Part shown: one piece after another, positions 4,547 to 35,024 of the stretch | Layout: each line of letters opens with the position of its first letter | Numbering within the stretch: position 1 is the first letter of the stretch | Assembly (NCBI RefSeq): GCF_000264315.1 | Contig: NZ_AJXU01000015.1 | Location: 1-64,000 of the forward strand | From: Rhodanobacter fulvus Jip2 | GTDB lineage: Bacteria; Pseudomonadota; Gammaproteobacteria; Xanthomonadales; Rhodanobacteraceae | Direction of reading: 5' to 3' | Length of the DNA: 64,000 bases | Notes under the pieces: generated by a model | The model's input: the letters and a program-made list of their open reading frames with translations, nothing else | The model's database searches: none | What the model was told of the DNA's origin: nothing | Position numbers and translations under genes: made by a program

Positions 4547-4548
4547 TC

Positions 4549-11871: not shown

Positions 11872-11874
11872 ATC

Positions 11875-13389: not shown

Positions 13390-15798
13390 CTACAGGAAAT
13401 CGGCGGGTTGCAGTTTGTAGGTCTGGCCGGCCTTCGTCGACAGCAACACCTGCCGCTTGCCATAGCGCACCTTGCAGTCGCCGCCGCGCAGTGAGCGCAC
13501 GCTGGCTTCTACCAGCTTGCCTTTCGCCCAGCGCATGTCGATCACGAAACCGCCGCGCGCGTGCAGGCCGCGCACTTCGCCTTGCGGCCACGCATCGGGC
13601 AAGGCGGGCAGCAGGTCGAGCTGGCCGGGTTCGCTTTGCATCAGCATTTCCACCATGCCCGAGGTGGCGCCGAAGTTGCCGTCGATCTGGAATGGCGGGC
13701 CGGCGTTGAACAGGTTCGGATAGGTGCCGGCCCATTCGTGGCCCAGCCGGGTGTCGCGCGAGGCGGGTTTGAACAGCACGTTCAACAGGTGCAGCGCGCG
13801 GTTGCCGTCGCCCAGGTGGGCCCACAGGTTCACCTTGTACGCCTCCGACCAGCCGGTGGAATCGTCACCGCGCACGTCCAGCGAGCGCGCTGCCGCGGCG
13901 GCGAGCTTCGGGGTTTTGGCAAGGTCGATCTGGTTGCCGGGAAACAGCGCCCACAGGTGCGATACGTGGCGGTGGTGCACTTCCACTTCGCGGTAAGGCT
14001 TGAGGTATTCCTGGATGCGCCCGTCGGGGCCGATCTGGATCGGCGCCAGTCGCGCCCGCTTGGCTTCCAGCTCGCGGCGGAAATCGGCATCCACGTGCAG
14101 GGTTTGCGAGGCCTCGATCACCGCGCCGAACAGGAAGCGGATCAGTTCCTCGTCCATTGTCGGGCCCATCACGATGGCGGCTTTGCCACCGTTCTCCATG
14201 TAGACCGTGTTTTCGGGCGAGCTCGATGGTGCGGTCACCAGCCAGTGGTGGCTGGGCTCCTCGATCAGCACATCGGCGTAGAACTGCGCGGCGCCGCGCA
14301 GCACGGGGTAGTAGCGGCGCAGGAAGTCGCGGTCGCCGGTGTAGCGGTAGTGATCCCAGATGTGGAAGCTCAGCCATGCAGGCGCGCCCTGCCACACGCC
14401 CCAGCTGGCCTCGGCGCCGGGTGCGGTGAAGCCCCACAGGTTGGTCAGCGTATGCACCACCCATCCGCGCGCGCCGTAGTAGCGTTGCGCGGTTTTGGCG
14501 CCGGGCTGTTGCAGCGAGGCGGTCAGCGCAAACAGCGGCTGCACCAGCTCGCCCAGGCCGGTGGGCTCGGCCGGCCAGTAGTTCATCTCGATGTTGACGT
14601 TGGTGTGGTAATCGCCATTCCATGGCGTGCTGGTGCCTTCGGCCCACAGCCCCTGCAGGTTGGCGGGCAGCCCGCCGGGGCGCGAGGAGGAAATCAGCAG
14701 GTAGCGCGCGTACTGGAAATACAGCGCGGCGAAACCGGGGTCGCCGCTGGCGCCGTAGGTATCGAGCCGCGCCCGCATGGACATCGTTTCGCGCGTGTTG
14801 TCGACGCTGCCCAGTTGCAGCGAGAAGCGGTCGAACCAGGAACTGAAATCGGCCACGTGCGCCGCATGCAGTTGCGCCACTGAGCGGCTCGCCACCCGCT
14901 GCAGATCGGTGGCGCTGGCGGCGACGGGGTCGGTGGTGTGGCGTCCGGCGAAACCATCGTAGTCAGTGGCTTCGCTGATCAGCACGGTGACGTCGGTGCC
15001 GTGTTCGACGCGGATGCCGTGCGCGTCGGCGTGCATGCTGGCGCCGGGTGCGATCACCCGCACCCGCGCGGCGAAAGCCAGCCCCTTGCCGCTGCCACCG
15101 CTGTCCAGTTCACCGCGCATCAGCAGGCCGTTGGCGCCATCGCCCTCGACGCTGGCGCGTTCGGCGCGATCGAGGCGAGCCACGAAATTCAACGCACCAG
15201 CGCGGTCGGCGCTGAGGTGCAGCACCATCACCTGGTCGGGCGCGCTGACGAACATCTCGCGCCGATAGCGGACGCCGTCTTGCGCGTAACGCACGTCGCT
15301 GGTGGCGCTGGGGATGTCCAGGCGGCGGCGGTAGTCGCTGACCGGTGCCGCGTTCGCGGCGAAATCCAGTGTCAGCGTGCCCAGGCCTTGGTAGGTGCCG
15401 TAGTGCGCATTGGCGCCCTCGCCGCTCCAGGTGAAGTGCTGGTTGGTGAGTTGCTCGGCTTCGACATTCCGGCCTTGCAGCAGCAGCTGGCGGATCTTCG
15501 GCAGGTAGTTCACCGCCTCCTTGCGATCGGCGCCGTCGTAGCGCGAGCCGGAAAACATGCTGATTTCGCTGAGCGAATAACGCGCCTGCTGCACGCCACC
15601 GTAAACCATCACCCCCATGCGCCCGTTGCCCAGCGGCAACGCTTCGTTGAAGGTGTTGGCGGGCGCGTCGTAGTGCAGTTGCAGGTTCTGGGCAGCGAGG
15701 GACGCGCCGGAAAACAGGCCGAGTGCGGCGACGGCGGCCAGCATCAGGCGGGCGCGCGCCTTGCCACGGCGGCGCCGGGGCGGGTCGGGTATGAGCAT
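13390..15798 (-). CDS. GH95 alpha-L-fucosidase, secreted
   Basis: An 802-aa glycoside hydrolase of family 95, predicted to remove terminal alpha-1,2-L-fucose (possibly alpha-L-galactose) from xyloglucan side chains by inversion. A basic N-terminus and a hydrophobic stretch (LMLAAVAALGLFSGASLAAQ) indicate Sec export, probably to the periplasm. The active-site landmarks known from the AfcA enzyme are in place: NVNIEMNYW (N400 and N402), SPEN with acid E529, and RGDDSTGWS (D645/D646). It is the most downstream gene of the xyloglucan operon, 155 bp after the 2-keto-3-deoxygalactonokinase with a family-C hairpin in that gap, so expression may be partly reduced or independent. Confidence 0.93.
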   Translation of the reverse strand: MLIPDPPRRRRGKARARLMLAAVAALGLFSGASLAAQNLQLHYDAPANTFNEALPLGNGRMGVMVYGGVQQARYSLSEISMFSGSRYDGADRKEAVNYLPKIRQLLLQGRNVEAEQLTNQHFTWSGEGANAHYGTYQGLGTLTLDFAANAAPVSDYRRRLDIPSATSDVRYAQDGVRYRREMFVSAPDQVMVLHLSADRAGALNFVARLDRAERASVEGDGANGLLMRGELDSGGSGKGLAFAARVRVIAPGASMHADAHGIRVEHGTDVTVLISEATDYDGFAGRHTTDPVAASATDLQRVASRSVAQLHAAHVADFSSWFDRFSLQLGSVDNTRETMSMRARLDTYGASGDPGFAALYFQYARYLLISSSRPGGLPANLQGLWAEGTSTPWNGDYHTNVNIEMNYWPAEPTGLGELVQPLFALTASLQQPGAKTAQRYYGARGWVVHTLTNLWGFTAPGAEASWGVWQGAPAWLSFHIWDHYRYTGDRDFLRRYYPVLRGAAQFYADVLIEEPSHHWLVTAPSSSPENTVYMENGGKAAIVMGPTMDEELIRFLFGAVIEASQTLHVDADFRRELEAKRARLAPIQIGPDGRIQEYLKPYREVEVHHRHVSHLWALFPGNQIDLAKTPKLAAAAARSLDVRGDDSTGWSEAYKVNLWAHLGDGNRALHLLNVLFKPASRDTRLGHEWAGTYPNLFNAGPPFQIDGNFGATSGMVEMLMQSEPGQLDLLPALPDAWPQGEVRGLHARGGFVIDMRWAKGKLVEASVRSLRGGDCKVRYGKRQVLLSTKAGQTYKLQPADFL

Positions 15799-15840
15799 GT
15801 GATCATTCCAATCTTGTGAAGAAAGCCACTGCTGGGGGTT

Positions 15841-15900
15841 TTTCCATCGCGTGCCCCCATCCGCCCTCCGGGCACCTTCCCCCGCAAGCGGGGGAAGGAA
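15841..15900. repeat. Family-C intergenic hairpin, copy 1
   Basis: The stretch holds CCCCCATCCGCCCTCCGGGC followed by a perfect 11-bp stem (15875-15885 with 15888-15898) whose core is CCTTCCCCCGC and whose loop is AA. Related sequences occur at 19866-19998 and 60596-60785. It lies in the 155-bp gap between the kinase and GH95 and has no T-run on the minus strand, so a terminator role is uncertain. Confidence 0.85.
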
Positions 15901-15954
15901 CAGCTCTCCGCGTTGTTGCTGTCGGCGTGGCGAAAACCCCCAGGCCGGCGATGT

Positions 15955-16908
15955 TCACGACCGTCCCACCTGCCCGGACTCGGGCATCAACCCCGCGGCC
16001 CGTGCGATCTGCCACAGGCCCAGTGCGGCGGCGCCGCGTGGCGGTAACGCCATGCCCAGTTCGAAGCAGGAGGCGGCCACCGCGTAGCGCCGACACAACA
16101 CCGGGTTGCCGATGAGTTGCAGCGGGGTGGAGGTGTTGACGCGGCCGGCGGCGATCGCGCTGCGCAGCTCCTCGCCGATCAGCAGCCCGGAGAGGTAATC
16201 GGGTACGGCGGGCAATGCCAGCTCGCCGGTGAGTACCAGCGCACGGCTGGAAAACAGCCGGCTCAGCGCGCCGCCCGCGCCGCTGTCGCGCGCGCTCTGC
16301 GCGCCGCGCAGGAAGGCGTCCTGGTCGAACGGCGGGTCGTCCTTGCCCAGCCCGGCACCCAGGATGCTGTGGTGACGCAGCGCCGTGTACAGCTCGCCGG
16401 TCATCGCGGTGGCGAAATCGACCACACGCCCGTGCAGCACGTTGACCCATTTGCTGTGGGTGCCCGGCAGCAGCAGCGCCGAGCGTCCCGCCAGCACCGG
16501 TTGCAGCGCCAGCGCGCCGAAGATCTCGGTCTCCTCGCCGCGCATCACGTCGGCGACAACCGTATTGCGCAGGCCCGGCACCAGATGCACGCGACGGCCG
16601 CTGACGCTGTCGACTGAACCCAACGCCACCACCACCGCATCGATGGTGGCGGGCAGTTCCACGTAGGGCACTTCCCGCCAGCCACCGCGGCTGCCGACCA
16701 TGCCGGAGGCCAGCACCGGCAGGTCGGGCCAGTCGGCCACGATGCCGTCCAGCGCCGCATCGAAACCGCCGGCAGGCAGGTGCCGGATGCCCCACGGACG
16801 CTCGCGGGATTCCAGCACGCGACCACCTTCGCCCATCAGGTAGGCGCGCAGTCCGGTGGTGCCCCAGTCAAGACCGATCAAGCGCGGCCGTGGCGTACTT
16901 TCTTTCAT
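15955..16908 (-). CDS. dgoK: 2-dehydro-3-deoxygalactonokinase
   Basis: A 317-aa cytoplasmic sugar kinase of the DgoK family, which phosphorylates 2-keto-3-deoxygalactonate in the De Ley-Doudoroff route of galactose catabolism. Visible features are the N-terminal phosphate motif GLDWGTTGLRAYLM, the family stretches GMVGSRGGWREVPY and LLPGTHSKWV, and GEELRSAI near the C-terminus. The ATG overlaps the stop of the upstream GH31 gene by 4 bp, so it is translationally coupled to an alpha-xylosidase. This supports a role in using galactose released from xyloglucan by the GH35 enzyme. The other enzymes of the route (dgoA, dgoD, galactose dehydrogenase) are not in the window. Confidence 0.92.
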   Translation of the reverse strand: MKESTPRPRLIGLDWGTTGLRAYLMGEGGRVLESRERPWGIRHLPAGGFDAALDGIVADWPDLPVLASGMVGSRGGWREVPYVELPATIDAVVVALGSVDSVSGRRVHLVPGLRNTVVADVMRGEETEIFGALALQPVLAGRSALLLPGTHSKWVNVLHGRVVDFATAMTGELYTALRHHSILGAGLGKDDPPFDQDAFLRGAQSARDSGAGGALSRLFSSRALVLTGELALPAVPDYLSGLLIGEELRSAIAAGRVNTSTPLQLIGNPVLCRRYAVAASCFELGMALPPRGAAALGLWQIARAAGLMPESGQVGRS

Positions 16909-19808
16909 GGTGTCGACGCGTCCTTGTGTACGGTGATCGCGGTGCCGTCGTAGTGCACGCTCTGCGCCGCCTTCGCCTCGAAATCGGTGGCGGTTGGCGT
17001 CGGGCCGGAGATCCAGCGGATGTTGAAGGTGCGCTGCGCGGGCATGCCCGGATAGCTGCCTTCGCGCTTGCCGATGGTCAGCGTAGCACTGGCCTCGTCA
17101 TAGCTGAACGGCACGCGGGCGAACGCACCGTGCTCGTAGTCGTAGGTGGTGCCCTGGTCCTTGTACATCGAGAACGTGCCGTTGGCGCCGGTGTAGACGA
17201 ACAGCGTGATCGGCGCGTCGGGCTTCTCGTTGGTGTACTGGATGGCCGGGCCGACCGGCACGATCGCGCCGGCGCGCACGAACAACGGCATCCGCGCCAG
17301 CGGCGCATCCGCCGTGATCGTCTGGCCGCCCTGGTACCGCTTGCCGGTGTAGAAGTCGTACCAGCTGCTGCCGGCCGGCAGGTAGACGTCGCGGCTGCGC
17401 GCCTGGTATTCGGTGACGGGCGCGACCAGGAACGCCGGGCCGAACAGGTACTCGTCGTCGATCTCGCGCACCTTGGGGTCGTTCGGGAAATCCATCACCA
17501 GGCCACGCATGATGGTGCCGTCCTTGAAATACGTATCGGCCGCCAGCGTGTAGATGTACGGCAGCAGGCGATAGCGCAGTTTGTCGTACCAGGCCAGCGT
17601 GTTGTAGACGTCCGAACCGACCGGCGCCAGGTTGTAGATCTCCCGCAGCGGCGCCTGGCCGTGCGAGCGGAACAGGGGGCTGAAGGCGCCGAACTGGAAC
17701 CAGCGCACGTTGAGCTCGCGCCATTCCTTCAGGCTCTCCGCATCGGGTTTCTCGTAGCGCGTCTCCACCGCGAAGCCGCCGATGTCGGTAGTCCAGTTGG
17801 GGATGCCCGACAGCGAGAAGTTCACGCCGGCGGAGATCTGGTCGCGCAAGTTGCTCCAGCGCGACACCACGTCGCCGCTCCAGCTTGCCGCGCCATTGCG
17901 CTGCTGGCCGGCGAACGCCGAGCGGGTCAGGATGAACACGCGCTGGTCGGGATACGACTTGCGGCTGCCCTGGTACACCGCGGTGGTGGTCATCAGCGGG
18001 TACGAGTTGAAGAACGCGGCGCCCGGCCCTTGCGCGGTCGGCCCCATGCGCAGCTTGCGCTCGTCGATGCTGATGTTGGACTGGATGTCGGGCTCGGTGG
18101 CGTCCATCCACCACGCGTCCATGCCCAGCTTGCCCAGGTTGTCGTTGATCTGGCGCCAGTAGATCGCGCGCGCCTCCTCGCTGTACGGGTCGTAGAACGA
18201 GTTGAGGTAACCCTTGCCGACCCAGTCCTTCTGGCCCAGCTCGACGTTGCGCTTGTACATGTAGCCCTTGGCGTCGAGCTCCTTGTAGTTGGCGGTGGTG
18301 GGGTAGAACTTCGGCCACACCGAGATCATGAAGTGCGCATGCAGGCCGTGCAGTGTATCGACCAGTTTCTGCGGGTCGGGGTAGCGCGCGGGGTCGAACT
18401 GCTGCGAGCCCCAGGCGTCCTCTTTCCAGTAGAACCAGTCCTGCACGATGTTGTCGAGCGGCAGGCCCAGCTTGCGGTATTCCTTCACCGTGCTGATCAG
18501 GTCGTCGCTGGAAGCGTAGTGCTCGCGGCTCTGCCAGAAGCCGTACGCCCAGCGCGGCAGCATCACCGCCTTGCCGGTGACGTCGCGGTAGCCAGCGATC
18601 ACGTCGTCGAGATTGTCGCCGCCGATGAAGTAGTAGTTGATCGCATGGCCCAGCTCGGAGAACAGCGACAGCTCGCTCTGCTCGGCGGCGGGCAGCGGGT
18701 CGAGATGATCCAGCGCGATGTAGCCCGATTGCGGCGTCCAGTCGAGGCGGATGGCGTGTTTCTCGCCGGGCTTCATCGCCACGGTGAAGTCGCGGTACCA
18801 GGGGTTCCAGTTCTGGCGCCAGTCATCGAGTACCAGCTTGTCGTCGATGTACAGCTTGAAATAGCCGCTGGCATACAGCCGGAACTTGTGCAGGCCGGCC
18901 ACGTCGGACGCCAGCGAACCTTTCCACTCCACCTTCTGCCCCGGTCCGCCGGTAAGGGGGTTGCCCTGGAAGTCGACACCCTGCAGCGATTTGGGCCAGT
19001 GCTTCAGATCCTTGTTGTATTCGTAGTTGATCTGCGACTCGACCCGGCTGAGCTTGAGCTTGCCGTCCACGTAGTAGTTGGCGGTGAGACCGCCAGGCTT
19101 GCCGTCCGCGTCGAACACCTTCAGCTGCTTGTCGATCATCTGGTACGGGCGCGGGTCGCCGAAGCGGGTGATCGAGTTGTTGTCCCACAGCACGCCGTAG
19201 TTGCGGCTGGAGACCACGAACGGAATGGCGATGTCGATGTTGTGCTGGGCCAGCTCCACGTCCTTGCCCTTGTAGTTCATCGTGCCTTTCTGGTGCTGGC
19301 CCAGGCCGTAGAACGCCTCGTCGTCGGGCGAGGCGAACTCCTGCCGCACGGCGTAGAACGGCTTGCCGTCCACCTTCACCGGCGTGAAGCTGCGCCCGTC
19401 CGGCTGCTCGGCCAGGATCACTTTGCCGCTGCTGTCGAGGAAGCGCACCGCGCCGGTTTTTGTCGCCACCTCGGCGGTGACCTTGGGCGTCTTCAGCAGC
19501 ACGTGGCCGGCGTCGGTGGCGACGGTGAACTGCTTGTCGCCGCCGGTCTTGATCGCCATCAGGCTCTTGGGCAGGTCGAAGCCGCCCGTGGGCACGGCGG
19601 TGACGTGGATGATCGAATCGTCCACCACCTGCAGGCGCACTTTCTCGCTGTCGCCCACGTCCACGATGACGCCGTCGGCAATCTGCTGGAACGCGGCCTT
19701 GGTCGACGCGGCGCTGTTGTCAGCGGATGGCGCGGCGTTGCTGCCGCAGCCGGACAGGAGCCCGATCAGCAGGCATCCGACCAGCGGATTCAGGGGAATG
19801 CGGTACAT
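16905..19808 (-). CDS. GH31 alpha-xylosidase with PA14 insert, lipoprotein
   Basis: A 967-aa family-31 retaining glycosidase predicted to remove alpha-1,6-xylose from the non-reducing end of xyloglucan oligosaccharides. The N-terminus is a lipoprotein signal with lipobox LLSGC (C21). A PA14-like beta domain lies at about 235-370, as in known bacterial xyloglucan alpha-xylosidases. The catalytic nucleophile is D569 in WWMDATEPD and the acid/base D646 in WSGDVVSRW. A membrane anchor on the periplasmic or outer face fits sequential trimming after GH74. It follows GH35 by 253 bp, a gap that contains a repeat pair, and overlaps dgoK by 4 bp. Confidence 0.94.
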   Translation of the reverse strand: MYRIPLNPLVGCLLIGLLSGCGSNAAPSADNSAASTKAAFQQIADGVIVDVGDSEKVRLQVVDDSIIHVTAVPTGGFDLPKSLMAIKTGGDKQFTVATDAGHVLLKTPKVTAEVATKTGAVRFLDSSGKVILAEQPDGRSFTPVKVDGKPFYAVRQEFASPDDEAFYGLGQHQKGTMNYKGKDVELAQHNIDIAIPFVVSSRNYGVLWDNNSITRFGDPRPYQMIDKQLKVFDADGKPGGLTANYYVDGKLKLSRVESQINYEYNKDLKHWPKSLQGVDFQGNPLTGGPGQKVEWKGSLASDVAGLHKFRLYASGYFKLYIDDKLVLDDWRQNWNPWYRDFTVAMKPGEKHAIRLDWTPQSGYIALDHLDPLPAAEQSELSLFSELGHAINYYFIGGDNLDDVIAGYRDVTGKAVMLPRWAYGFWQSREHYASSDDLISTVKEYRKLGLPLDNIVQDWFYWKEDAWGSQQFDPARYPDPQKLVDTLHGLHAHFMISVWPKFYPTTANYKELDAKGYMYKRNVELGQKDWVGKGYLNSFYDPYSEEARAIYWRQINDNLGKLGMDAWWMDATEPDIQSNISIDERKLRMGPTAQGPGAAFFNSYPLMTTTAVYQGSRKSYPDQRVFILTRSAFAGQQRNGAASWSGDVVSRWSNLRDQISAGVNFSLSGIPNWTTDIGGFAVETRYEKPDAESLKEWRELNVRWFQFGAFSPLFRSHGQAPLREIYNLAPVGSDVYNTLAWYDKLRYRLLPYIYTLAADTYFKDGTIMRGLVMDFPNDPKVREIDDEYLFGPAFLVAPVTEYQARSRDVYLPAGSSWYDFYTGKRYQGGQTITADAPLARMPLFVRAGAIVPVGPAIQYTNEKPDAPITLFVYTGANGTFSMYKDQGTTYDYEHGAFARVPFSYDEASATLTIGKREGSYPGMPAQRTFNIRWISGPTPTATDFEAKAAQSVHYDGTAITVHKDASTP

Positions 19809-19865
19809 GGGTCAGTCTCCAATCGGTGAATCGGTTGAGCGCGGCGTACGTTCGGGACTCAAGTG

Positions 19866-19998
19866 TGTTCTTGCTTCCCCCGCGCAGCGGGGGAAGGTGC
19901 CCGAAGGGCGGAAGGGGGTGCTTTTCGCTGTGCAAAGGCAAGATCAAGAGCGCCCCCATCCGCCTTCGGCACCTTCCCCCGCTTCGCAGGGGAAGGAA
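19866..19998. repeat. Family-C intergenic repeat, inverted pair (copy 2)
   Basis: Two family-C units face each other. The left unit has a 10-bp stem at 19874-19896 (CTTCCCCCGC, loop GCA) followed by GGTGCCCGAAGGGCGGAAGG. The right unit reads CCCCCATCCGCCTTCGGCAC and ends in an 8-bp stem (19972-19979 with 19989-19996). The pair fills most of the gap between the GH35 and GH31 genes and could form one long cruciform or RNA hairpin in the operon transcript. Confidence 0.85.
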
Positions 19999-20061
19999 AA
20001 AATTGGTTGCGCGCTGCCCCATGGACTATTCACGACCTATGGGCACCATGCGGTTCGGGAT

Positions 20062-21690
20062 TCAATACGTGGCCAGCTTCACCCGCAGCACCTGCGGCTG
20101 GCTGGTGAGGTTGAGGCCGTAGTCGGTCTGGTCGCCGTTCCATTCGCGGATGAAATGCCACTGGCCGTTTTCGTCGTAGCGGCCTTCCTGCACTTTTTCC
20201 AGCAGGAAGTGCTGGCCGTCGTGGCCCTTGGGCGGCATGAAGTTCACCCGCGCGTGATAGCCGGCCACCAGGTATTCATTGGGGGCCAGTTGCACGATCA
20301 CCACGCCGCCGAGTTTTTGCGGATTGCCCTGCGGCGGATCCATGCCGAACTGCGGCCGGCCGTAGCTCACCTGCACCCGCCAGTCGCCCAGGTCCAGCGT
20401 CTGCTCGTGGGCTTCATCGGGTTCGGACGCGCCCCACACCTTGCCCGCGAAACTCTGCTTGGCGATCAGCCCGGCCAGCGGCGCCAGCAGCTCGTAGTTG
20501 GCGGCGAACGGCTGGATGGTTTCCGGGGTGATCGCCTTGGCGCCCAGCGGCCAGTTGGAATACTTCGTGTAATCCATGCCGAACGGCGAGAAGCCAATGC
20601 CCTGATGGCCCAGCGTGGCGAACACGTAGCGCGCATAAGCCACGTCGTTGCCGGTCTCGGCCACGAACAGCGCGTTGTCGGGGCGGCTGTAGCGGTCCAG
20701 CACGGTGGTGTATTTCTTCCACTCGCGCATGTAGATGTCGGGCGAAACGAAATCGAGCGACGGCGCTGCCGCACGCCAGATGCCGATCACGTTGTCGGTG
20801 GGGCCGCCACTGGAGTAACCGCCGGGCGGGCCGGGGTTGAACGGATCGCGCAGCGCCGCGTTGGCGTACATCGGCAGGTTGTAGACGGCCTTGCCCGCGG
20901 CGGCCACCTGTTCGATGTAGTGCGCGATGGCCCAGGCGTAGGAATATTCCGCCGCATCCTTGCCGAACACCTCACTCCACGTGCCGACCGATTTGCCGGC
21001 TTTCTTCAGCACCGCGGCAGGCACGGGCGACTGCAGCAGCTTGTCGCCCGCGGCCGAGTAGTCGCGATCGCTGCCGTAGGTGCCCGACTCGTTTTCCACC
21101 TGCACCATGATCACCGTGTGGCGATCGCCATCGATCTGCCGCAGGTGCTTCATCAGCGCCACGAAGGCGGTGCGATCGGCGTCCAGCGTGTGGCTACCCA
21201 GCGGCGACAGCGAGCCCAGTGTGGAGCCGTCCTTCTTCACCACGCGCGGGTAGCGCGCGTTGTCCAGCTTCACCCACGCGGGCGCGTAGTTCGGGCCGTT
21301 GTTTTTCCAGGTCGCGAACCACAGCAGCACCAGCCGCACGTCGTGCTCGCGCGCCTGCGTCACCAGCGTATCGAGGAAGCTGAAGTCGAACTGCCCCTGC
21401 GTGGGCTCGACCTGGCCCCAGCCGATCGGCACCTGCACCGTGTTGGCGTGCAGCGCTTCGATTGCCGGCCACACCGCCGGCAACATGTCCGGCCAGCCGC
21501 TGGAGTTGTTCACCTGCGCACCGAGGATCAGGTACGGCTTGCCATCCACCTGCAACTGATGGCGGCCCTCGGCGGTGACCACACGCGGCAATGGCGTGGA
21601 TGCGGCCTGCACGGTGGTGACACCCAGCGTGGCGACGCAAAGCAGCGGCAGCAGCAAGCGACGAATGGATCGGGATGGGGAAATGATCAT
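20062..21690 (-). CDS. GH35 beta-galactosidase, secreted
   Basis: A 542-aa family-35 retaining beta-galactosidase, predicted to cut beta-1,2-galactose from xyloglucan side chains in the periplasm. The start is the ATG at 21690 (GGTGA 6 nt upstream); the frame could open earlier only at a TTG. A Sec signal (RRLLLPLLCVATLGVTTVQA) is followed by the catalytic domain with acid/base E201 in VENESGTYG and nucleophile E345 in FVAETGND. The 144-residue spacing equals that of the characterised Cellvibrio GH35 enzyme as I recall it. It begins 4 bp after the stop codon of the acetylesterase gene, so the two are co-translated. Confidence 0.93.
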   Translation of the reverse strand: MIISPSRSIRRLLLPLLCVATLGVTTVQAASTPLPRVVTAEGRHQLQVDGKPYLILGAQVNNSSGWPDMLPAVWPAIEALHANTVQVPIGWGQVEPTQGQFDFSFLDTLVTQAREHDVRLVLLWFATWKNNGPNYAPAWVKLDNARYPRVVKKDGSTLGSLSPLGSHTLDADRTAFVALMKHLRQIDGDRHTVIMVQVENESGTYGSDRDYSAAGDKLLQSPVPAAVLKKAGKSVGTWSEVFGKDAAEYSYAWAIAHYIEQVAAAGKAVYNLPMYANAALRDPFNPGPPGGYSSGGPTDNVIGIWRAAAPSLDFVSPDIYMREWKKYTTVLDRYSRPDNALFVAETGNDVAYARYVFATLGHQGIGFSPFGMDYTKYSNWPLGAKAITPETIQPFAANYELLAPLAGLIAKQSFAGKVWGASEPDEAHEQTLDLGDWRVQVSYGRPQFGMDPPQGNPQKLGGVVIVQLAPNEYLVAGYHARVNFMPPKGHDGQHFLLEKVQEGRYDENGQWHFIREWNGDQTDYGLNLTSQPQVLRVKLATY

Positions 21691-21694
21691 GGTT

Positions 21695-25890: not shown

Positions 25891-28163
25891 GGTTGTTCCC
25901 CTTTCGGATCGCCGCGGAAGATGCCGCGGCCACCCGTAGCAAAATACACGCGCCCGAACACGCGCGGGTCGCCGGTGACGTAACCCACCTCGCCGTACTG
26001 ATGCGCATCGTCGTTGACGCGCTGCCACTGCGCGCCGCCGTCGATCGAACGGAACAGCCCGCGCTGACCGTCAATCGCGCCGGCCAGGAACAACGCCGAT
26101 TCGCTGTGCCCAGGTGCGGGCTTGCCGAAGCCCAGCGACACCGCGCTGTCGATGCCGTGGCTCTGTCGCAACACACGGCCGTCGTCGCTGCCATGGATCA
26201 CACCGCCGCGCGCGCTGATCGCCACCAGCTCGCCGGCCTGCCCCGGCACCGCGTAGACCACGGCATTGGTGGGCCGATGCGGCGCCTGGTATTGCTGCTT
26301 CACCGCGTCGCCGAAAGCACCGTCGATCGCGCTGAAATGCAGCCCGCCATCGTGGCTGGCGAACAGCGCGCCGGTGGTGATGTCCTGCGCGTAGAAACGC
26401 TGCGCATCGACGCGATCGGCCAGCACGCGCGCCGCTTTCGGCAAGCCTTCTGCCGCATTCCAGTGCTTGCCCCAGTCGCGGGTGACATACGCGTTGCCGG
26501 CGTCCAGCGGAAACCACAACGCGCTGCGGCCATCGGCGGCCACGGCCACCGTACCTTCGCCCTTGCCGCCCGGCTCGCTGGCAAACGCGTGCCAGGTGCT
26601 GGCGCCGTCCAGCGAGTACGCAGCGCGTACCGCGTCGACCGACCCGCGGATGCGGCCCGTGCGCACCACCACGCGCGGCGCATTGCCGGCCACATCGATG
26701 CTGTAGCCATTGGCATAGCGTGGTGGCGCGGCGAACTGCAGCGGCGCCACGTCGAGATCGTCATGCCGGAAACCATCGAGGTCACCCACCGCGCTCAGCA
26801 GATGCGCGCCCTCGGCCGGGCTGGCCAGACCCAGCGGCACGGTCTCCTCCAGGTTGGTGTCCTGGAACCACCAGTCCACGGTGCCGCCGTGGTCGAACGC
26901 GCGCATGTTGCGCGAGGCCCACACGCCGTAGCCGGTGACGAACATCACGTGGTCGGGATCGAACGGATCGATCACCAGACTGCTCATCCAGTGCGGATGA
27001 TGGTCGGCGGTCCAGCGTGCATTCGAATGATCGAAGGTGGAGCGCGGAAACACGGGCTGCCAGTGCTGGCCGCCATCGGTGCTGCGGTAGATCTCGTCGT
27101 ACGGCGTGTAGTGGCAGAACGTGCTGGCCATCAGGATGCGCGGATCGTGCGCATCCACGGTGATGTCGCCCCAGCCGAAGCCGCTGGGTTTGCCGTTGCG
27201 CGGGATCGGCGTGATGTCGGTCCAGCGGTCGTCGGCGGGGGTGAATTTCCACACCGCGCCGTCGTTCATGTCGTCCGGCCCGGGCTCGTCGCCATAGGTC
27301 AGGTAATAGCTGCCGTCCGCGCTGCGGCGCATGTGCGTGGGGCGCAGGCCGGTGGGTTGGCCCGGTACCGCCTGCCAGCTTTTGCCGCCATCGGTGGAAC
27401 GGAACAGGCTGGTTTCGCGGGTGGAAACGCCGGCGTACAGCACCGGCGTGGGCTCGCCGCTTTTGCCGCTGGCCGGCTCGAACACCACGAACACGATGCC
27501 GATCGGCTGGCGTCGCCACTGGTTCTTCGCGGTGGAGGCGAACGAGGTCGCCACCGCGGGAAACGCGTCGACACGCGCCCAGTGCGCCGCATGGTCGTCA
27601 CTGCGCCACAGGCCCGCATCGCGCGAGCCGAAGAAAAGAATGCGGCCATCATGCGGATCAACGGCGAGTCGCTCGCCATTGCCGCGGGCCAGTTCATTGC
27701 CACCCAGTTTGAACGGCAGGTCCACGCGCTGGAACGTGGCGCCACGATCGTGCGAGCGCAGGATCGCGCCGTTGCCGGCGGCCTCGGTCGTATACGTGCC
27801 GGCGGCCAGGTAGATCCAGCCGGTGTCGTGCGGGTCCACCGCCATGCTGCCGATGCCGGTGAGGTTGGCGTCGTCGGCGCCCAGCCAGTCGGTCAGCGGC
27901 AGCCATTTTTTCGCCGCATCGTCCCAGCGGTACGCGCCACCGACGTCGGTGCGCGCGTAGTACAAGCCTTTTTCGGCGGGATGAAAAACCAGGCCACTGA
28001 CATAACCGCCACCACCGATGCGCACGCTTTGCCAGTCGTAGTGCACGTCCTGCGCGACGGCAGCCAGCGGCAACCACAAGCCGCAGACCCACAGGCAGGC
28101 AACACGCCGAAGGCGCGACAGCAGGGTGGAAGAAGGACGATGGAATCGGTGCTGGCTCATCAT
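25887..28163 (-). CDS. GH74 endo-xyloglucanase
   Basis: A 758-aa family-74 inverting endo-beta-1,4-glucanase that cuts the xyloglucan backbone. The start is the ATG at 28163 or the adjacent ATG at 28160 (AGGA just upstream). The Sec signal LWVCGLWLPLAAVAQ is followed by two seven-bladed propellers recognisable from RIGGGGYVSGLVFHP, YYARTDVGGAYRWD (base D73 by comparison with the family), repeated YRSTDGGQHW-type BNR motifs and VGDLDGFRHDDLD near the domain junction. No carbohydrate-binding module is attached. It is the key depolymerase of the locus, lying 70 bp after the TonB-dependent receptor and coupled to GH36. Confidence 0.94.
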   Translation of the reverse strand: MMSQHRFHRPSSTLLSRLRRVACLWVCGLWLPLAAVAQDVHYDWQSVRIGGGGYVSGLVFHPAEKGLYYARTDVGGAYRWDDAAKKWLPLTDWLGADDANLTGIGSMAVDPHDTGWIYLAAGTYTTEAAGNGAILRSHDRGATFQRVDLPFKLGGNELARGNGERLAVDPHDGRILFFGSRDAGLWRSDDHAAHWARVDAFPAVATSFASTAKNQWRRQPIGIVFVVFEPASGKSGEPTPVLYAGVSTRETSLFRSTDGGKSWQAVPGQPTGLRPTHMRRSADGSYYLTYGDEPGPDDMNDGAVWKFTPADDRWTDITPIPRNGKPSGFGWGDITVDAHDPRILMASTFCHYTPYDEIYRSTDGGQHWQPVFPRSTFDHSNARWTADHHPHWMSSLVIDPFDPDHVMFVTGYGVWASRNMRAFDHGGTVDWWFQDTNLEETVPLGLASPAEGAHLLSAVGDLDGFRHDDLDVAPLQFAAPPRYANGYSIDVAGNAPRVVVRTGRIRGSVDAVRAAYSLDGASTWHAFASEPGGKGEGTVAVAADGRSALWFPLDAGNAYVTRDWGKHWNAAEGLPKAARVLADRVDAQRFYAQDITTGALFASHDGGLHFSAIDGAFGDAVKQQYQAPHRPTNAVVYAVPGQAGELVAISARGGVIHGSDDGRVLRQSHGIDSAVSLGFGKPAPGHSESALFLAGAIDGQRGLFRSIDGGAQWQRVNDDAHQYGEVGYVTGDPRVFGRVYFATGGRGIFRGDPKGEQP

Positions 28164-28233
28164 CGCGTCCTGTGGAAAAAGGTGCCGACAACCCGGGAAG
28201 GGGTACGGACTGCCGGCACCGTGGAGCAACGGA

Positions 28234-31080
28234 TCAGAAACTGAACTGTGCCTTCAGGCTGAACATGCGGTCGTTGATCTGCACATCACGCGGACGCGTA
28301 TCCACACCGAAGATCGTGGCGCGCTTGGTGTTGGTCAGGTTTACCGCCGCGGCGGTCAGCGAGAACAGGTCCGAGAAGTGATACGTCACCGACGCGTCGA
28401 CCTGGCCATAGGCCTTGTCGTAGATCGGCAGGTCGCCGGTGCCGTTGCCGCGCGTGGTGACTACCCACTGGCTGCGCCAGTTGTAGGCAACGCGGGCGGA
28501 AATCGGGCCCTTCTCGTACATCGCCACCAGGTTGTAGCTGTTCTTCGACAGGCCTTCCAGCGGCACCTGCAGCGGGTTGCCGTCGGTGTCCATCGCATCC
28601 GGGCTGGGTGCCTTGCTGTAGACGTAGGTGTAGTTGACCTGCATGCCCAGTCCGTCGAATGGCTCGGGCAGGAAGTCGAAGAAGGTCTGGTAGCCCGCCT
28701 CGGCACCCTTGATCACGCCGTTCTCGCCATTGACCAGACGGGTGATGTCGTAATCATGCATTTTGCCCAACTGATCGGGATGCGGCTCGTTGACCGAGGT
28801 GCTCTGCACGAAGCCGTCCACCGCCTTGTAGAACAGCGCGCCGTAGAGCATCTGGTTGGGCGAGATGTACCACTCCAGCGAGGTGTCGTACTGCTTGGCC
28901 GTCATCGGTTTCAGGTAGGGATTGCCGCCGGCGTTGCCGGTGTAGGCGTTCGCGCCGGTATCCGCGTTCGGGGTGCTCAGGGTCAGCATCGGGTTGAGCT
29001 GGTCGAAGCTGGGCCGCGACAAGCCCTTCGACGCGGCGAAGCGCCACTGCAAGGTGTCGGTGAGGTGGGCCGTGACGTTGAGGCTGGGCAGGTAGGAGTT
29101 GTACGAGTTGTCGACGCTGAGCGGCAACACCGCGCCGGTCGAGTCGGTCATCACGCCGTGCGTGCTGACATTCGTGCGCACCGCGCGCACGCCGACATTG
29201 CCATCGACGGGGATGGAGCCCAGCTGGGTACCGAAGGTGATCAGGCCGTAGGCGGCGTAGGTCTTCTCGCCCTGCTTGTTGGTGCCGGTGGCCGGATAGG
29301 TCAGCGGATCGGGGTATCCAAACATCGTGCGCGAGGCGTCGTAGTCGTACAGCAGCGACGGATTCGGCGCGATGAACGAGCCGATCACGTCGGCATCGCC
29401 ATGGAAGAAATCGGCAAACGAACGCTGGATCCAGGTGGAGTCGTCGTAGTTGGACAGCGGCTGGCCCACCCACTTGAACTGGTAACCCGAGTCGGCGGTT
29501 TCCGCCTTGCGATCGGTGGTGCGCACGCCGAACTTGATCGACTGCAGGAAATCGCCGCCAAACGAATACTCACCGTCGGCGCGCCAGGCAAACTCGCGCC
29601 CGTTGCTCCTGGTCTTGTCGTCCATGATGAAGTTGAACGCGTTGTTGGCCGGATCGGTCACGTACGCGTTGTCCACGCCCAGCACCGGCGTGTGGCCAGC
29701 GATGTTCTGATAGAAATACGGCGTGGTGGTGTGGGTGTTGAGGATGTAGCGGAAGGTGTCGGTCTTGGCCTTGATGTACTGGAAATCGGTTTTCAAGGTG
29801 AGGTTGTTGGTGGCGTTCCACGAGCCGCCCCACGAGAAGTCGGTGGTGACCGAATGGCGCGTGGTGAGGCTGCTGTTGGAGTCCACGCTGACGCCCGCGG
29901 TCGGCGCCACGGAGGGATCAGGTACGCCCTTGGCATCGTTGCCGCCGGTACCGTTGAAGGTGCCGCTGATGAAGTCGCCGTTGGGGCCGAATGCGAACGG
30001 CTTGGTCGGGTCGGGAATCATCCCCTGCGCACTGGTGTAGGCGAAGTACGAGTAGTCGTTCCACTGGAATTTGTAGTCCGAACGCAGTGCCTGCGCGTAC
30101 AGCTCGACGTCGGCATTCGGACGCCATTGCAGCGCGACGGATGTGCCCAGTCGACGGCGCTGCCCCAGCGTCTCGCCGACGCCGCCGCCATGCGGCACCT
30201 GCAGCGTGCGGCCTTCGAAACCCGGGTAATCCGCTTCCGGATAGACCTCGCCCGTCGCGTCCGCAGCGCCGGCATGGATGGTGTAGAACGGCTCGGTGCT
30301 GATCACGTCCTGGCGGAACGAATGCTTCTGGTAGGCCACGTCCACCAGCAGGCCGAACTCGCCGGCATCGGTATCCCAGCGGTTGCTGTACAGCGCGGAG
30401 GCCGACGGGTGGCCGTCCTTGATCAGGTCGCCGTAGTCGTATTCGCCGGTGACCGCGATCTTCTGGCCCGCGAAATCGAACGGCTTGTGCGTGCGCAGGT
30501 TCACCGTGCCGCCGAGGCCGCCCTCGATGATTTCCGCGGACGGGTTTTTGTACACGTCGATGCCGGCCAGCAATTCGGACGGCACATCCTCGAAACTCAG
30601 CGCGCGCCCGCCGTTGGCGGTGAAGGCGTCGCGGCCGTTGATCTCGGTGCGCACCTGGGTCAGGCCGCGGATGGCGATGGTGCTGCCTTCGCCGTAGTTG
30701 CGATCGATCTGGATGCCGGAGATGCGCTGCAGCGCCTCGGCCACGTTGCTGTCGGGCAGCTTGCCAATGTCCTCGGCCACGATCGAATCGACGATCTGAT
30801 CAGCGTTCTGCTTGATCGAGATGGCCGACGCCATGCTGGCGCGCACACCGGTAACGGTGACCGCACTGAGACTGGTGGTGTCCTTTTTGGGCGCGGGCTT
30901 TTGTGTCTGCGGTGCAGCCTGGTCGGTGTTCGCGCTGGTGGTCGTGTCGGCCTGTTGCGCCCACACCGCCGCCGGCATGGCGAACATCGCCACGCTCATC
31001 GCGATGGCCATCGAAAGGCCGCTGCGGCGCAATGGCACCGTGCCGAAACGCCCGGATTTATCGTTGTCTTGCCTGTTCAT
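28234..31080 (-). CDS. TonB-dependent receptor of the xyloglucan locus
   Basis: A 948-aa outer-membrane receptor. The ATG at 31080 has GGAAG upstream and is followed by a signal peptide (LSMAIAMSVAMFAMPAAVWAQ), a TonB-box-like LSAVTVTG, a plug domain (IVAEDIGKLPDSNVAEALQRISGI, IRGLTQVRTEINGRDAF) and a C-terminal 22-strand barrel ending in FSF with a terminal Phe. It belongs to the large carbohydrate-type receptors of Xanthomonadales (TIGR01782-like). Position directly before GH74 makes uptake of xyloglucan oligosaccharides the likely job. No SusD-like partner is present, as usual in Proteobacteria. Confidence 0.94.
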   Translation of the reverse strand: MNRQDNDKSGRFGTVPLRRSGLSMAIAMSVAMFAMPAAVWAQQADTTTSANTDQAAPQTQKPAPKKDTTSLSAVTVTGVRASMASAISIKQNADQIVDSIVAEDIGKLPDSNVAEALQRISGIQIDRNYGEGSTIAIRGLTQVRTEINGRDAFTANGGRALSFEDVPSELLAGIDVYKNPSAEIIEGGLGGTVNLRTHKPFDFAGQKIAVTGEYDYGDLIKDGHPSASALYSNRWDTDAGEFGLLVDVAYQKHSFRQDVISTEPFYTIHAGAADATGEVYPEADYPGFEGRTLQVPHGGGVGETLGQRRRLGTSVALQWRPNADVELYAQALRSDYKFQWNDYSYFAYTSAQGMIPDPTKPFAFGPNGDFISGTFNGTGGNDAKGVPDPSVAPTAGVSVDSNSSLTTRHSVTTDFSWGGSWNATNNLTLKTDFQYIKAKTDTFRYILNTHTTTPYFYQNIAGHTPVLGVDNAYVTDPANNAFNFIMDDKTRSNGREFAWRADGEYSFGGDFLQSIKFGVRTTDRKAETADSGYQFKWVGQPLSNYDDSTWIQRSFADFFHGDADVIGSFIAPNPSLLYDYDASRTMFGYPDPLTYPATGTNKQGEKTYAAYGLITFGTQLGSIPVDGNVGVRAVRTNVSTHGVMTDSTGAVLPLSVDNSYNSYLPSLNVTAHLTDTLQWRFAASKGLSRPSFDQLNPMLTLSTPNADTGANAYTGNAGGNPYLKPMTAKQYDTSLEWYISPNQMLYGALFYKAVDGFVQSTSVNEPHPDQLGKMHDYDITRLVNGENGVIKGAEAGYQTFFDFLPEPFDGLGMQVNYTYVYSKAPSPDAMDTDGNPLQVPLEGLSKNSYNLVAMYEKGPISARVAYNWRSQWVVTTRGNGTGDLPIYDKAYGQVDASVTYHFSDLFSLTAAAVNLTNTKRATIFGVDTRPRDVQINDRMFSLKAQFSF

Positions 31081-31472
31081 CTGATATTTCTTCCCGAAGA
31101 ATTTGGATTGCCGCTGCAGTGATCTGCGCAAGCATGTCGCCGATGGCGATGGCACCAACCTGGCGTACATCTCCGGGTTGCGTCAGCGCCCTGCCCGTCC
31201 CCTGTTGCTCACTGAAGAACATTCGGTGCACTGGCAGCGCACGCATGCTGGAGCGAGCGCAACACGGGCGCAATTACGAAATCAGCGATTCGCGTGACGT
31301 TTCTTCATTTGCATCCGCCGCAAAACACAAGGCGAATCCAGCGCATCGGCCCGCACGAAATCCCCGCGAAAACACGGCGATCCGAATGCTTTGCGAGCCG
31401 GGACCGATCGACCGACCGTCGTATGGGTTGCGACCACGCGAGGGCGGGAACGGCGACGCAACCTCACGCCAA
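31081..31472. other. 392-bp gap before the TonB-dependent receptor
   Basis: No convincing gene, hairpin or known operator was found here. It must hold at least part of the leader of the receptor-GH74 operon if that operon has its own promoter. The codon pattern of the short open frames inside is not gene-like. Confidence 0.6.
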
Positions 31473-33815
31473 TTATTTGCCCATCACCCTTGCCAGACCC
31501 GCGACCTTCTTGCCGAACGCCGCATCACCACCGGTGGCGCGCAAGCTTTGCGATGCGTTGTCCCAGTGCAGCGCCGTGGTGGTGCCCTGCCCCTTTTGAT
31601 AGGCGTACGACGTGCCGTCGTCGTCATACAGCGCGAACTCGGCGTCGCTGCCGGGATAGACGCGGATCTCGGCAATCGATTGCTTCGAGACGGTGGACTG
31701 GACGTCCGAACCCAGCGGCACGATCGAACCGGCGCGCACGAAGACGGGAATCCGGTCGATGGGTGCGGCCACCTTCACCCAGCGTCCGCCGGCCAGCTTT
31801 TCGTTCGTCCAGAAGTTGTACCAGTCGCTGCCGGCGGGCAAATAGACGTCTTTTTCGGTCTGGCCCTGCGCGGTGATCGGCGCCACCAGGAAGGCCGGGC
31901 CGAACATGTATTGCGTGCCGAGATCGGCGACGTTGGGGTCGTTGGGAAAATCCATCCACAACGGCCGCATGAACGGCGCGCCGGTGTCGTAGGTCTTCTT
32001 GGCCAGGCTGTAGATGTACGGAATCAGGCGGTAGCGAAGCCTGTCGTACTTCGCCATCACCGCCTCGGCCTCATGGCCAAACGCCCAGATTTCCGTGTGC
32101 TTGCGGCTGCCATGGATGCGCAGCGTGGGCAGGAAGGTGCCGTACTCGAACCAGCGCGTGAGCAGTTCGGGGTAGTCGTTGTTCTGCCCCACCGTGTCGC
32201 GTGCGTCGGACGGATCGAGCAGCGGCTTTTTGGTGGCGCTTGTGGTTTGCGGCAGCCATTGCCAGCCGCCGATGTCGTTGCCCCAATAGGCGATGCCCGA
32301 GGCGGTCATGTTGAGGCCGGTGGGAATCTGGCGGCGCAGCGCTTCCCAGCTCGGGTCGATGTCCGACGACCAGAACAGTGCACCGGTACGCTGCGAGCCG
32401 AGGTACGCGGCGCGGGAAAGAATCAGCACGCGCTCATCCGGTTTCCAGGCGCGCATGCCCTTGGCGACGCTTTCCACGTGCAGCAGCGGGTAGACGTTGT
32501 GGTAGCGATCGCCGGAGCCGATCGAGAAGAAATAGCCGTCCGGCACCAGGTCCGGCTCGGTCTCGTCCAGCCAAGGGTAGTCGTAGCCGTGCGAGAGAAT
32601 GTTGTCGCGCACGTGCGTCCAGAACCACTGCCGCGCGGCCGGGTTGGTGGCATCGAGCAGCGCACCGGCGCGGTCGGAACGGAACGGCAAGCCGTCGACC
32701 GTCTTGCCGTCCTTGTCCTTCAGGAAATAACCCTTGGCGTCGAGCTCCTTGAAGTAGCGGCCGGAGCGCTCGAAACGCGGCCAGATCGACACGATGGATT
32801 TCATGCCCATCGCATGCAGCTCTCGGTTCATGCCGTCCGGGTCGGGAAATTCCGCCGGATTGATGTCCATCTGGCCCATGCGCGTCCAGTAGAACCAGTC
32901 CTGCACCATCACGTCCAACGGATAGTTTTTCTCGCGATAGGTGCGCGCCACCCGTAGGATTTCGGCCTGGCTGCTGTAGCGCGCCTTGGACTGGATCAGG
33001 CCGAACGCCGCCTTGGGCGGGATCGGCGTCTTGCCGGTCACCCGCGCATAGGCCGAGTAGATCTGCTCCGGCGTGCCGCCGGTGATGACGAAGAAACTGA
33101 CGCGTTCACCCACCTTCGACTGGAACCGGGTGTGGCCGTTGATGCCGGCCACGAAGCGCGTCTCCGACGGGTTGTCCCAGATGATGCCGTAACCCTTCGA
33201 CGAGACCATGAAGGGCACGCACACGGTTTCACCGCTGGGCGCGTCGTACCAGTGCTTGCAGTCGATCACGCGACCGCGCAGATCGAGCGGCCCCAGGCTG
33301 CCCTGGTTCTGGCCCATGCCGTAGTAGTGCTCATCGGCGGGCGCCTTGAAGGTCGCACCCACCTGATAGGTCGCCTCGCCCGCCACCTCGTGCGGCGACA
33401 TCTCCCAGCCGGTCATGTCGACGACCGTCGCACCGCTGGCGTTCTTCACCTGCAGGCTCACCGGTGCCAGCTGCGGCGCGAAATAGCGATCGGTGATCGC
33501 CGGCGCGCGCGGTGGCGGTGGCGCATCCACATGCAGGGTCAACGCGGGCGACGCGAAGGTATTGCCGCTGGCGTCGCGGGTTTGCTGGAACGCCGAATCA
33601 TCGACGTGGTCGGCAAGGATCCCGTAACCGGGCGCCGCCAGCACCTGCGCCTTGTCGGCGGCAATCGTCACGTGGACGACGTTCGGCCCATACGCCTCGA
33701 CGCTGACCCACGCACCATGGCGGTCGAGCGTGACCCGCTCTGCGGCATCGACGGTGGCCATCGTCGCGGCAAGGGACAAGGCCAGGCCCAACAAGGCAGT
33801 TCTGGAAATTCGCAC
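31473..33815 (-). CDS. GH31 family glycosidase, secreted (second copy)
   Basis: A 780-aa family-31 enzyme without the PA14 insert. The start is a GTG at 33815, supported by GAGGGG 5 nt upstream; an ATG 3 bp further out is in another frame. A Sec signal ends near VDAAE. The nucleophile is D417 in PWLDETEPD and the acid/base D485 in FWSSDIDPSW. Sequence around both sites differs from the lipoprotein GH31 at 16905-19808, so the two are probably not redundant; alpha-xylosidase, alpha-glucosidase or another alpha-glycosidase activity is possible. It is the first gene of the locus in transcription order, separated by 392 bp from the receptor. Confidence 0.9.
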   Translation of the reverse strand: MRISRTALLGLALSLAATMATVDAAERVTLDRHGAWVSVEAYGPNVVHVTIAADKAQVLAAPGYGILADHVDDSAFQQTRDASGNTFASPALTLHVDAPPPPRAPAITDRYFAPQLAPVSLQVKNASGATVVDMTGWEMSPHEVAGEATYQVGATFKAPADEHYYGMGQNQGSLGPLDLRGRVIDCKHWYDAPSGETVCVPFMVSSKGYGIIWDNPSETRFVAGINGHTRFQSKVGERVSFFVITGGTPEQIYSAYARVTGKTPIPPKAAFGLIQSKARYSSQAEILRVARTYREKNYPLDVMVQDWFYWTRMGQMDINPAEFPDPDGMNRELHAMGMKSIVSIWPRFERSGRYFKELDAKGYFLKDKDGKTVDGLPFRSDRAGALLDATNPAARQWFWTHVRDNILSHGYDYPWLDETEPDLVPDGYFFSIGSGDRYHNVYPLLHVESVAKGMRAWKPDERVLILSRAAYLGSQRTGALFWSSDIDPSWEALRRQIPTGLNMTASGIAYWGNDIGGWQWLPQTTSATKKPLLDPSDARDTVGQNNDYPELLTRWFEYGTFLPTLRIHGSRKHTEIWAFGHEAEAVMAKYDRLRYRLIPYIYSLAKKTYDTGAPFMRPLWMDFPNDPNVADLGTQYMFGPAFLVAPITAQGQTEKDVYLPAGSDWYNFWTNEKLAGGRWVKVAAPIDRIPVFVRAGSIVPLGSDVQSTVSKQSIAEIRVYPGSDAEFALYDDDGTSYAYQKGQGTTTALHWDNASQSLRATGGDAAFGKKVAGLARVMGK

Positions 33816-34105
33816 GGCATCCCCTCAACGCTGATACGAACGTGCACCACCGGGCACACGTCGGAATGCCTGACTATTTATCATACGAATCGGCCCCGCC
33901 CGCTCCGCTGCCCCGCTTTCGGCAAAATTCGTTATGCGGGTTGGGGGATTTGATAAAGACCGGGAGTTTCCCGGCAGGTCGTGTAACGGGAGGAGACGGG
34001 CTTGTATGGACACGCTCGGTGGTAGCGGCTTCAGCCGCGATGCTCTTGATGTTTGCAGGAGCGATTTCAGTCGCGACGCTCATTGTTGGTGGAGCAAAGT
34101 CAAAG

Positions 34106-34185
34106 GCTTTCGATCGCCTACGGCGCTCGAGTCACTTTTCTCTTGCGTGGCCAAGAGAAAAGTAACCAAAAGAGAAGGCCACCCC
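34106..34185 (+). repeat. Left terminal inverted arm of the 1-kb element
   Basis: Begins with GCTTTCGATCGCC and GGCGCTCGAGTCACTTTTC and ends in GGCCACCCC. Within it CTTTTCTCTTG pairs with CAAGAGAAAAG around a 6-nt GCGTGGC-type centre, a hairpin in its own right. The reverse complement recurs at 34880-34959 with a few mismatches. Confidence 0.88.
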
Positions 34186-34959: not shown

Positions 34960-35024
34960 TCTTGCTCTAAGGCCACATTCAAGAGCAAGAGCATCGCGGC
35001 TGAAGCCGCTCCCACAGGTGCGTG

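Follow-up and report, generated by a model that had tools for sequence, protein, structure and literature searches.

A stretch of 64,000 nucleotides of the Rhodanobacter fulvus Jip2 genome (contig NZ_AJXU01000015.1, positions 1 to 64,000, hereafter the window) carries nine adjacent genes that very likely form a xyloglucan utilisation locus (XyGUL) of the Xanthomonas type. The locus appears to have been remodelled within its lineage and placed in a positive loop of the xylose regulator XylR, with side roles for a 2-keto-3-deoxygalactonokinase (DGOK) and for an enzyme of glycoside hydrolase (GH) family GH36. In transcription order the genes encode GH31a, a TonB-dependent receptor, GH74, GH36, a CE20 esterase, GH35, GH31b, DGOK and GH95 (Table 1). 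Because a second genome, that of Rhodanobacter sp. Root480 (G316), has the same whole arrangement at 93–97% identity, it is not an assembly artefact. We regard it as a new, lineage-specific version of an already known type of locus, its compositional oddities being explained by recruitment and loss.

The locus was compared across 398 genomes of the order; searches within the family of the window strain (Rhodanobacteraceae) covered 197 genomes. GH74 was found in 63 genomes, 31 from this family and 32 from a second one, presumably the Xanthomonadaceae; eleven further matches at 39–43% identity represent a second, more distant GH74. Within Rhodanobacter the locus is patchy, with GH74 in four of the 22 genus members listed. 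The own-family loci were taken in two batches, the window with 20 relatives and then ten more, the latter together with 22 of the 32 second-family loci. For each own-family relative 13.8–36 kb were taken, and genes outside that stretch would be missed.

The chief new finding is a conserved two-part operator. The segment upstream of the window receptor matched segments upstream of the relatives' receptors and of xylR. The shared element, AAGAAWCRTNA followed after 12–13 bases by ATTTYGYAATTG, consists of two half-sites separated by roughly two turns of the helix, the spacing of the paired half-sites used by AraC-type activators. It lies upstream of the receptor gene, in the orientation of that gene, in all 31 own-family loci (22 exact, six with one mismatch, three with two), 70–409 bp from the matched part of the receptor. 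A matrix built from 38 own-family sites, without Escherichia coli, scored the receptor sites at 36.5–51.4 and found nothing at 0 or above in any of the 22 second-family loci examined. In a reversed control of 724 kb there was no match at up to four mismatches. The exact pattern occurs once in the 3.88-Mb genome, and a relaxed pattern twice (control 0), at the receptor (47.2 bits) and between xylF and xylR (25.2 bits); both sites face minus-strand operons. A second operator was also seen upstream of GH74 in two relatives, G164 and G283 (L041, 1785–1820; L049, 1854–1889).

As described in the available parts of the literature, E. coli XylR controls both xyl operons from the shared xylA-xylF region (PMC8534289). 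In a 6-kb test stretch from E. coli, the matrix ranked a site in this intergenic region first (11.8), and none of 300 shuffles scored as high; the next distinct site, in the same region on the xylA strand, reached −5.9. Since the E. coli site ranked first and the two XylR proteins are 46% identical, control by XylR is the best reading, and the AraC-type XylR is likely an activator at the operator. The window regulon would resemble the E. coli xylAB-xylFGHR regulon in its regulator and in the matching xylA-xylF site, but, judged against the accessible text on the latter, it would differ by including a polysaccharide locus (PMC8534289).

Several points weigh against this regulatory reading. The pattern was drawn from 11 sites at nine of the loci later counted; independent tests are therefore limited to E. 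coli, the second family and the ten own-family loci added in the second batch. In two second-family loci (G329, G397), the sequence covered upstream of the outer receptor came to less than 100 bp. The relaxed genome pattern was shaped to admit the xylF-xylR site, a site that carries three mismatches some 460 bp away from xylF. Weak chance matches occur as well, one at 5.8 in the window and two at 5 or more in the reversed matrix control run across all loci. Moreover, xylA does not lie beside the locus, and the 35-kb contig (C36) with its homologue (49% identity) has no operator at up to five mismatches.

It is conceivable that another conserved regulator binds the operator, that the nearness of xylR is incidental, and that a LacI-type protein serves xylF. 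XylR binding is a prediction, the site between xylF and xylR scores below that at the receptor, and a one-mismatch match to the LacI-type xyl-box lies between the same two genes, at 39067. We nevertheless judge this alternative unlikely: exact operator copies occur between xylR and xylA in two other Rhodanobacter genomes (G164 and G145), xylR homologues lie within the examined stretch of many own-family loci, and the matrix picks the E. coli xylA-xylF region. Scanned with up to one mismatch, the first 21 own-family loci gave one xyl-box each in the window and in Root480, near xylF, and none at a receptor; a LacI-type regulator is thus not evident as the controller of the window receptor. The second batch had a xyl-box in seven of its 32 loci, near xylB in four of the own family (G360, G380, G046, G080) and upstream of a receptor in three of the second family (G001, G304, G266). 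Some loci of the second family may thus be controlled by a LacI-type regulator.

The enzymes themselves point to xyloglucan. Family calls were made with Pfam and NCBIfam, and the closest solved relatives were found by PDB sequence search. The structures 7kn8, 7kmm, 7kmn, 7kmp and 7kmq, matched by GH74, CE20, GH35, GH31b and GH95, are presumably those of Xanthomonas enzymes. This fits the XyGUL of X. citri (XAC1768–XAC1774), in which, according to the text available, two TonB-dependent transporters are followed by GH74 (XAC1770), CE20 (XAC1771), GH35 (XAC1772), GH31 (XAC1773) and GH95 (XAC1774), then by xylose genes and a major facilitator superfamily (MFS) carrier, with a beta-glucosidase supplied from outside the locus (PMC8245568). 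The window shares with it the TonB receptor, GH74, CE20, GH35, the PA14-bearing GH31 and GH95, in the same order: GH74 adjoins the receptor and the others follow, with GH36 and DGOK interposed. Xylose genes alongside and the lack of a beta-glucosidase in the locus are further likenesses. Unlike the X. citri locus as described there, the window has one receptor instead of two, adds GH31a, GH36 and DGOK, and has a divergent GH95, a XylR-type operator, and XylFGH in place of xylulokinase, isomerase and MFS carrier (PMC8245568). Since those three genes are not adjacent, and a XylFG transporter and a transketolase stand there instead, the locus is best called a variant of the Xanthomonas-type XyGUL. 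The second-family loci follow the X. citri order, with CE20, GH35 and GH31b in all 22 examined and GH95 in 21.

A similar comparison can be made with Cellvibrio japonicus, whose XyGUL, in the available text, shares Xyl31A, Bgl35A, Afc95A, a TonB receptor and periplasmic saccharification with the window. However, that four-gene locus is without GH74, CE20, GH36 and DGOK, and its authors note that it appears to have no sensor or regulator, whereas the window has an adjacent AraC-type XylR and a probable operator (PMC4285296). In the literature searched, part of it accessible as excerpts, we found no description of a XylR-controlled xyloglucan locus or of a GH36 in one.

A preliminary description of this DNA had correctly recognised nine adjacent minus-strand genes at 13390–33815 and their families. 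The six tight junctions it counted are reduced to four with better starts: GH74/GH36, GH36/CE20 and GH31b/DGOK (each −4) and CE20/GH35 (+4). Wider gaps separate GH31a from the receptor (392 bp, or 302 bp with the listed receptor start), the receptor from GH74 (70 bp), GH35 from GH31b (253 bp) and DGOK from GH95 (156 bp), and the receptor comes within 4 bp of GH74 only if GH74 is read from a TTG 22 codons further upstream. We infer at least two transcription units, because the operator lies between GH31a and the receptor; GH31a, upstream of the operator, would depend on a separate promoter or on read-through. The likeness to Xanthomonas and the different composition (GH31a, GH36 and DGOK being extra) were rightly stated, while the supposed difference in order was not, as the six genes in common are arranged as in X. 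citri. Export signals on all glycosidases, also proposed, are plausible: a hydrophobic N-terminal stretch is visible by eye in the hydropathy of the six glycosidases, CE20 and the receptor, and absent from DGOK, and GH31b has a lipobox-like LSGC. Periplasmic breakdown followed by xylose import, as that description suggested, finds good support in homology to the X. citri and C. japonicus systems and in the neighbouring XylF and XylG.

Table 1. Features of the xyloglucan locus and the adjoining xylose genes in the window
Feature	Position	Strand	Basis and remarks
GH31a (no PA14), probable alpha-xylosidase, predicted exported	31473..33815	-	Pfam; PDB search: 7kmp/2xvg (416/411 bits), MeXyl31 5zn6 (343); upstream of receptor operator
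XylR-type operator AAGAAACGTCA-N12-ATTTCGTAATTG	31271..31305	-	upstream of receptor
TonB-dependent receptor	28234..31170	-	Pfam, NCBIfam; likelier start 31080
GH74 endo-xyloglucanase	25887..28163	-	7kn8, 855 bits; listed open reading frame begins TTG 28229
GH36 alpha-galactosidase, predicted exported, recruited gene	23644..25890	-	Pfam; 4fnq AgaB, 446 bits
CE20 xyloglucan acetylesterase	21695..23647	-	7kmm, 709 bits
GH35 beta-galactosidase, GalD/Bgl35A type	20062..21690	-	NCBIfam; PDB search: 3u7v, 8fa4, 7kmn (702/681/677 bits)
GH35/GH31b gap, place of GH3 in many relatives	19809..20061		inverted pair of REP-like repeats, 19873-19897 and 19972-19996
GH31b, GH31 alpha-xylosidase with PA14, Xyl31 type, lipoprotein-like	16905..19808	-	7kmp, 1235 bits
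DGOK, 2-keto-3-deoxygalactonokinase, predicted cytoplasmic	15955..16908	-	Pfam
DGOK/GH95 gap	15799..15954		one REP-like core, 15870-15885
GH95 alpha-L-fucosidase-like	13390..15798	-	Pfam; 7kmq, 592 bits; divergent from second-family XyGUL GH95s
Sugar ABC permease (XylH position)	35025..36218	-	above no NCBIfam cut-off
XylG D-xylose ABC ATPase	36215..37801	-	TIGR02633, NF010069 above cut-off
XylF D-xylose binding protein	37779..38795	-	TIGR02634 above cut-off
Second, weaker XylR-type operator	39255..39289	-	between xylF and xylR
AraC-type XylR	39428..40618	+	46% identical to E. coli XylR; listed open reading frame begins 39128

The presence of two GH31 enzymes sets the window and Root480 apart. 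Among the 31 own-family loci, twelve have GH31b only (one of them cut by a contig end), seven GH31a only and ten neither; these two alone have both. The GH31a of the GH31a-only loci is 60–87% identical to that of the window. In four loci (G283, G244, G252, G271), GH31a occupies the place of GH31b after GH35 and GH3, which supports an alpha-xylosidase function. In the 7kmp alignment, inspected by eye, the two catalytic Asp residues of XacXyl31 and the Trp with which it shuts out C6, as these are given in the available text (PMC8245568), are conserved in GH31a. Pfam finds no PA14 domain in it, hence it lacks the +2 subsite Trp of that domain, and for this reason we say that it works like Xyl31A rather than being of the Xyl31A type. 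Its relatives were studied through the best 80 of 169 matches in the genome collection, of which 70 are 60–87% identical and the top one is from Root480 (NZ_LMEX01000004.1). Co-location with xyloglucan genes, which was expected, was partly found, with a GH74-type gene near 12 of these 80 and GH35 near 12. That many of the 80 sit outside xyloglucan loci counts against the main reading and suggests a mobile or a strongly conserved stand-alone enzyme. Weaker operator-like matches (7–16 bits) were noticed about 0.1–1.2 kb upstream of GH31a in seven (L093, L095, L096, L097, L111, L124, L080) of ten xylR-bearing loci in Massilia-like genera and Dyella, where the stand-alone GH31a may likewise be under XylR control.

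GH36 appears to be a recruited gene. Close homologues (E at most 1e-100) occur in 31 of the 398 genomes, and by position only those of the window and Root480 stand beside GH74. In Rhodanobacter G164, whose locus is without GH36, GH74 and CE20 overlap directly by 4 bp; as both new junctions are again 4-bp overlaps, the insertion kept the coupling. We looked at the GH36 neighbourhoods in ten of the 29 other genomes, with Pfam run on cluster representatives. They hold a GntR-type regulator (eight), an aldose-epimerase-like gene (seven), a TonB receptor (seven), an MFS carrier (five), a DgoD-like gene (four), DGOK (three) and a GH27-like gene (three), while one, in G248, has none of these partners and only an adjoining GH95. 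Such surroundings speak for the use of alpha-galactosides with De Ley-Doudoroff catabolism. The catalytic motifs of GH36, which are AgaB-like, appear intact on visual inspection. We know of no xyloglucan bond for GH36, and with GH3 also absent from the locus, the preliminary description went too far in calling the set complete and letting it cover every bond but the cellobiosyl backbone. The likeliest task of GH36 is to release alpha-galactose from plant galactosides that accompany xyloglucan, not from xyloglucan itself. It seems very unlikely that GH36 instead acts on xyloglucan, taking off an alpha-D-galactosyl (or beta-L-arabinopyranosyl) cap, as yet undescribed, in certain plants on which this lineage lives.

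The role of DGOK lies in galactose catabolism and not in depolymerisation. After Root480, its closest relative is the copy in the xyloglucan locus of G164 (76%; the next is at 60%). There it is followed by genes for 2-dehydro-3-deoxy-6-phosphogalactonate aldolase (dgoA) and galactonate dehydratase (dgoD), both above NCBIfam cut-offs, then by a short-chain dehydrogenase/reductase and an MFS carrier. The window locus kept DGOK alone, and a separate set of GntR, DGOK (54%), a DgoD-like gene and a lactonase is present on contig C37 of the same genome. One could imagine a mixed hemicellulose and galactoside locus, in which GH36, DGOK and GH35 serve primarily alpha- and beta-galactosides (galactoglucomannan, raffinose type) and xyloglucan is one substrate among others. 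The company kept by GH36 elsewhere, including DGOK and GH27-like genes, and its 4-bp overlaps with both GH74 and CE20 would suit such a locus. Yet the Pfam calls for the nine genes include neither GH27 nor any other evident mannan enzyme, the solved relatives of GH74, CE20 and the PA14-GH31 mark these three as xyloglucan enzymes, and GH36 has entered a xyloglucan locus in just two of 31 genomes; we find the mixed locus improbable.

GH95 is divergent. It is 44% identical to the second GH95 of the same genome and, Root480 apart, at most 45% identical to any match in the 197 own-family genomes. In a 28-sequence tree that carries a long-branch warning, it sits on a long branch apart from the clade formed by 20 second-family XyGUL GH95s, which counts against the main reading. 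By eye, the general-base Asn pair is present, and a His stands at the position of Thr395 of XacAfc95, a position described as not decisive in the available text (PMC8245568). Fucosidase activity is likely. There was no sign that CE20 came from outside xyloglucan loci, as no match above 59% was found among the 197 own-family genomes, Root480 excepted. A second CE20 (42%) lies on contig C36 (14983–27671), within 13 kb of a GH3 and the xylA homologue and without an operator; this cluster is perhaps a xylan locus. The receptors fall into three classes, each with members of both families. That of the window occurs in 11 of the 22 second-family loci and, in the own family, only in Root480, G210, G120 and G140.

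At least 14 of the 20 first-batch relatives, including the same-genus G164 and G145, keep a PA14-bearing GH3 (Pfam, one member) inside the locus, and five of the ten second-batch own-family loci have a GH3. It is absent from the locus in the window and in Root480. No remnant of GH3, dgoA, dgoD, xylA, xylB or a receptor was found in nine gaps (best E 0.04), and the window genome has no orthologue of the locus GH3 (best 35%). It does have six GH3-family genes, one short (402 aa) and five longer than 800 aa, and a beta-glucosidase may be supplied from elsewhere in the genome. The GH35/GH31b gap holds an inverted pair of palindromes resembling repetitive extragenic palindromic (REP) elements, with others in the DGOK/GH95 gap and at 60695–60719; the 16-base core has 22 copies in the genome (control 0). 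REP-mediated loss of GH3 was considered, but the Root480 gap does not share the pair, and for this reason the repeats may postdate the loss. The two gaps match over 29 bases only, and the Root480 gap matches the spacer upstream of GH31a. Relative to G164 and G145, the missing GH3, dgoA/dgoD and xylAB, together with the repeats in the gaps, could also be taken as signs of a decaying locus and of lost growth on xyloglucan. This seems highly improbable, since nine frames are open and kept at 93–97% identity in Root480, the operator is intact, and the genome has five other long GH3-family genes and a second galactonate gene set. The remodelling sits in the lineage of the window strain and Root480, with GH36 between GH74 and CE20, GH3 absent, GH95 divergent and both GH31 types present.

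Other features of the window stand apart from the locus. The 1.2-kb spacer at 33816–35024 has 89-nt inverted arms (34101–34189 and 34876–34964) and a GGCAGA/GGCAAA tract at about 34380–34510, and similar stretches in Root480, G145, G366 and G293 mark it as a dispersed intergenic repeat. Three consecutive OmpA-like barrel genes, apparently paralogues, lie at 42887–45167. Surface-polysaccharide genes (Wzt-type ABC, a methyltransferase/glycosyltransferase fusion, rml-like, manC) occupy 1–13284, and G+C is lower (0.56–0.59) in the first 8 kb. Of two cystathionine gamma-synthase-type genes (7029–8288 and 61888–63114), one adjoins the polysaccharide genes.

Taken as a remodelled XyGUL, the locus would work as follows. 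GH74 would cut xyloglucan outside the cell, and the TonB receptor would import the oligosaccharides. In the periplasm, CE20, GH95, GH35 and GH31b would strip acetyl, fucose, galactose and xylose, with GH31a probably adding alpha-xylosidase activity for short products. Because the locus has no GH3, backbone glucose would be freed by GH3 enzymes encoded elsewhere. Xylose would enter via XylFGH and bind XylR, which would activate the operons of the receptor and of xylFGH alike by way of the paired half-sites, closing a positive loop driven by the end product. Galactose would pass into the De Ley-Doudoroff route, with DGOK contributing, while GH36 would most likely supply alpha-galactose from co-occurring galactosides.

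The operator, found in all 31 loci of one family and in not one of the 22 examined in the other, points to one regulator and two promoters, and is the part of immediate use to specialists. For proteobacterial xyloglucan loci it offers a regulator candidate where the C. japonicus authors, in the text available, saw none (PMC4285296). Two alpha-xylosidases of differing architecture stand side by side, open to comparison. More broadly, the window would represent a polysaccharide locus that swaps its modules while its control region is kept.

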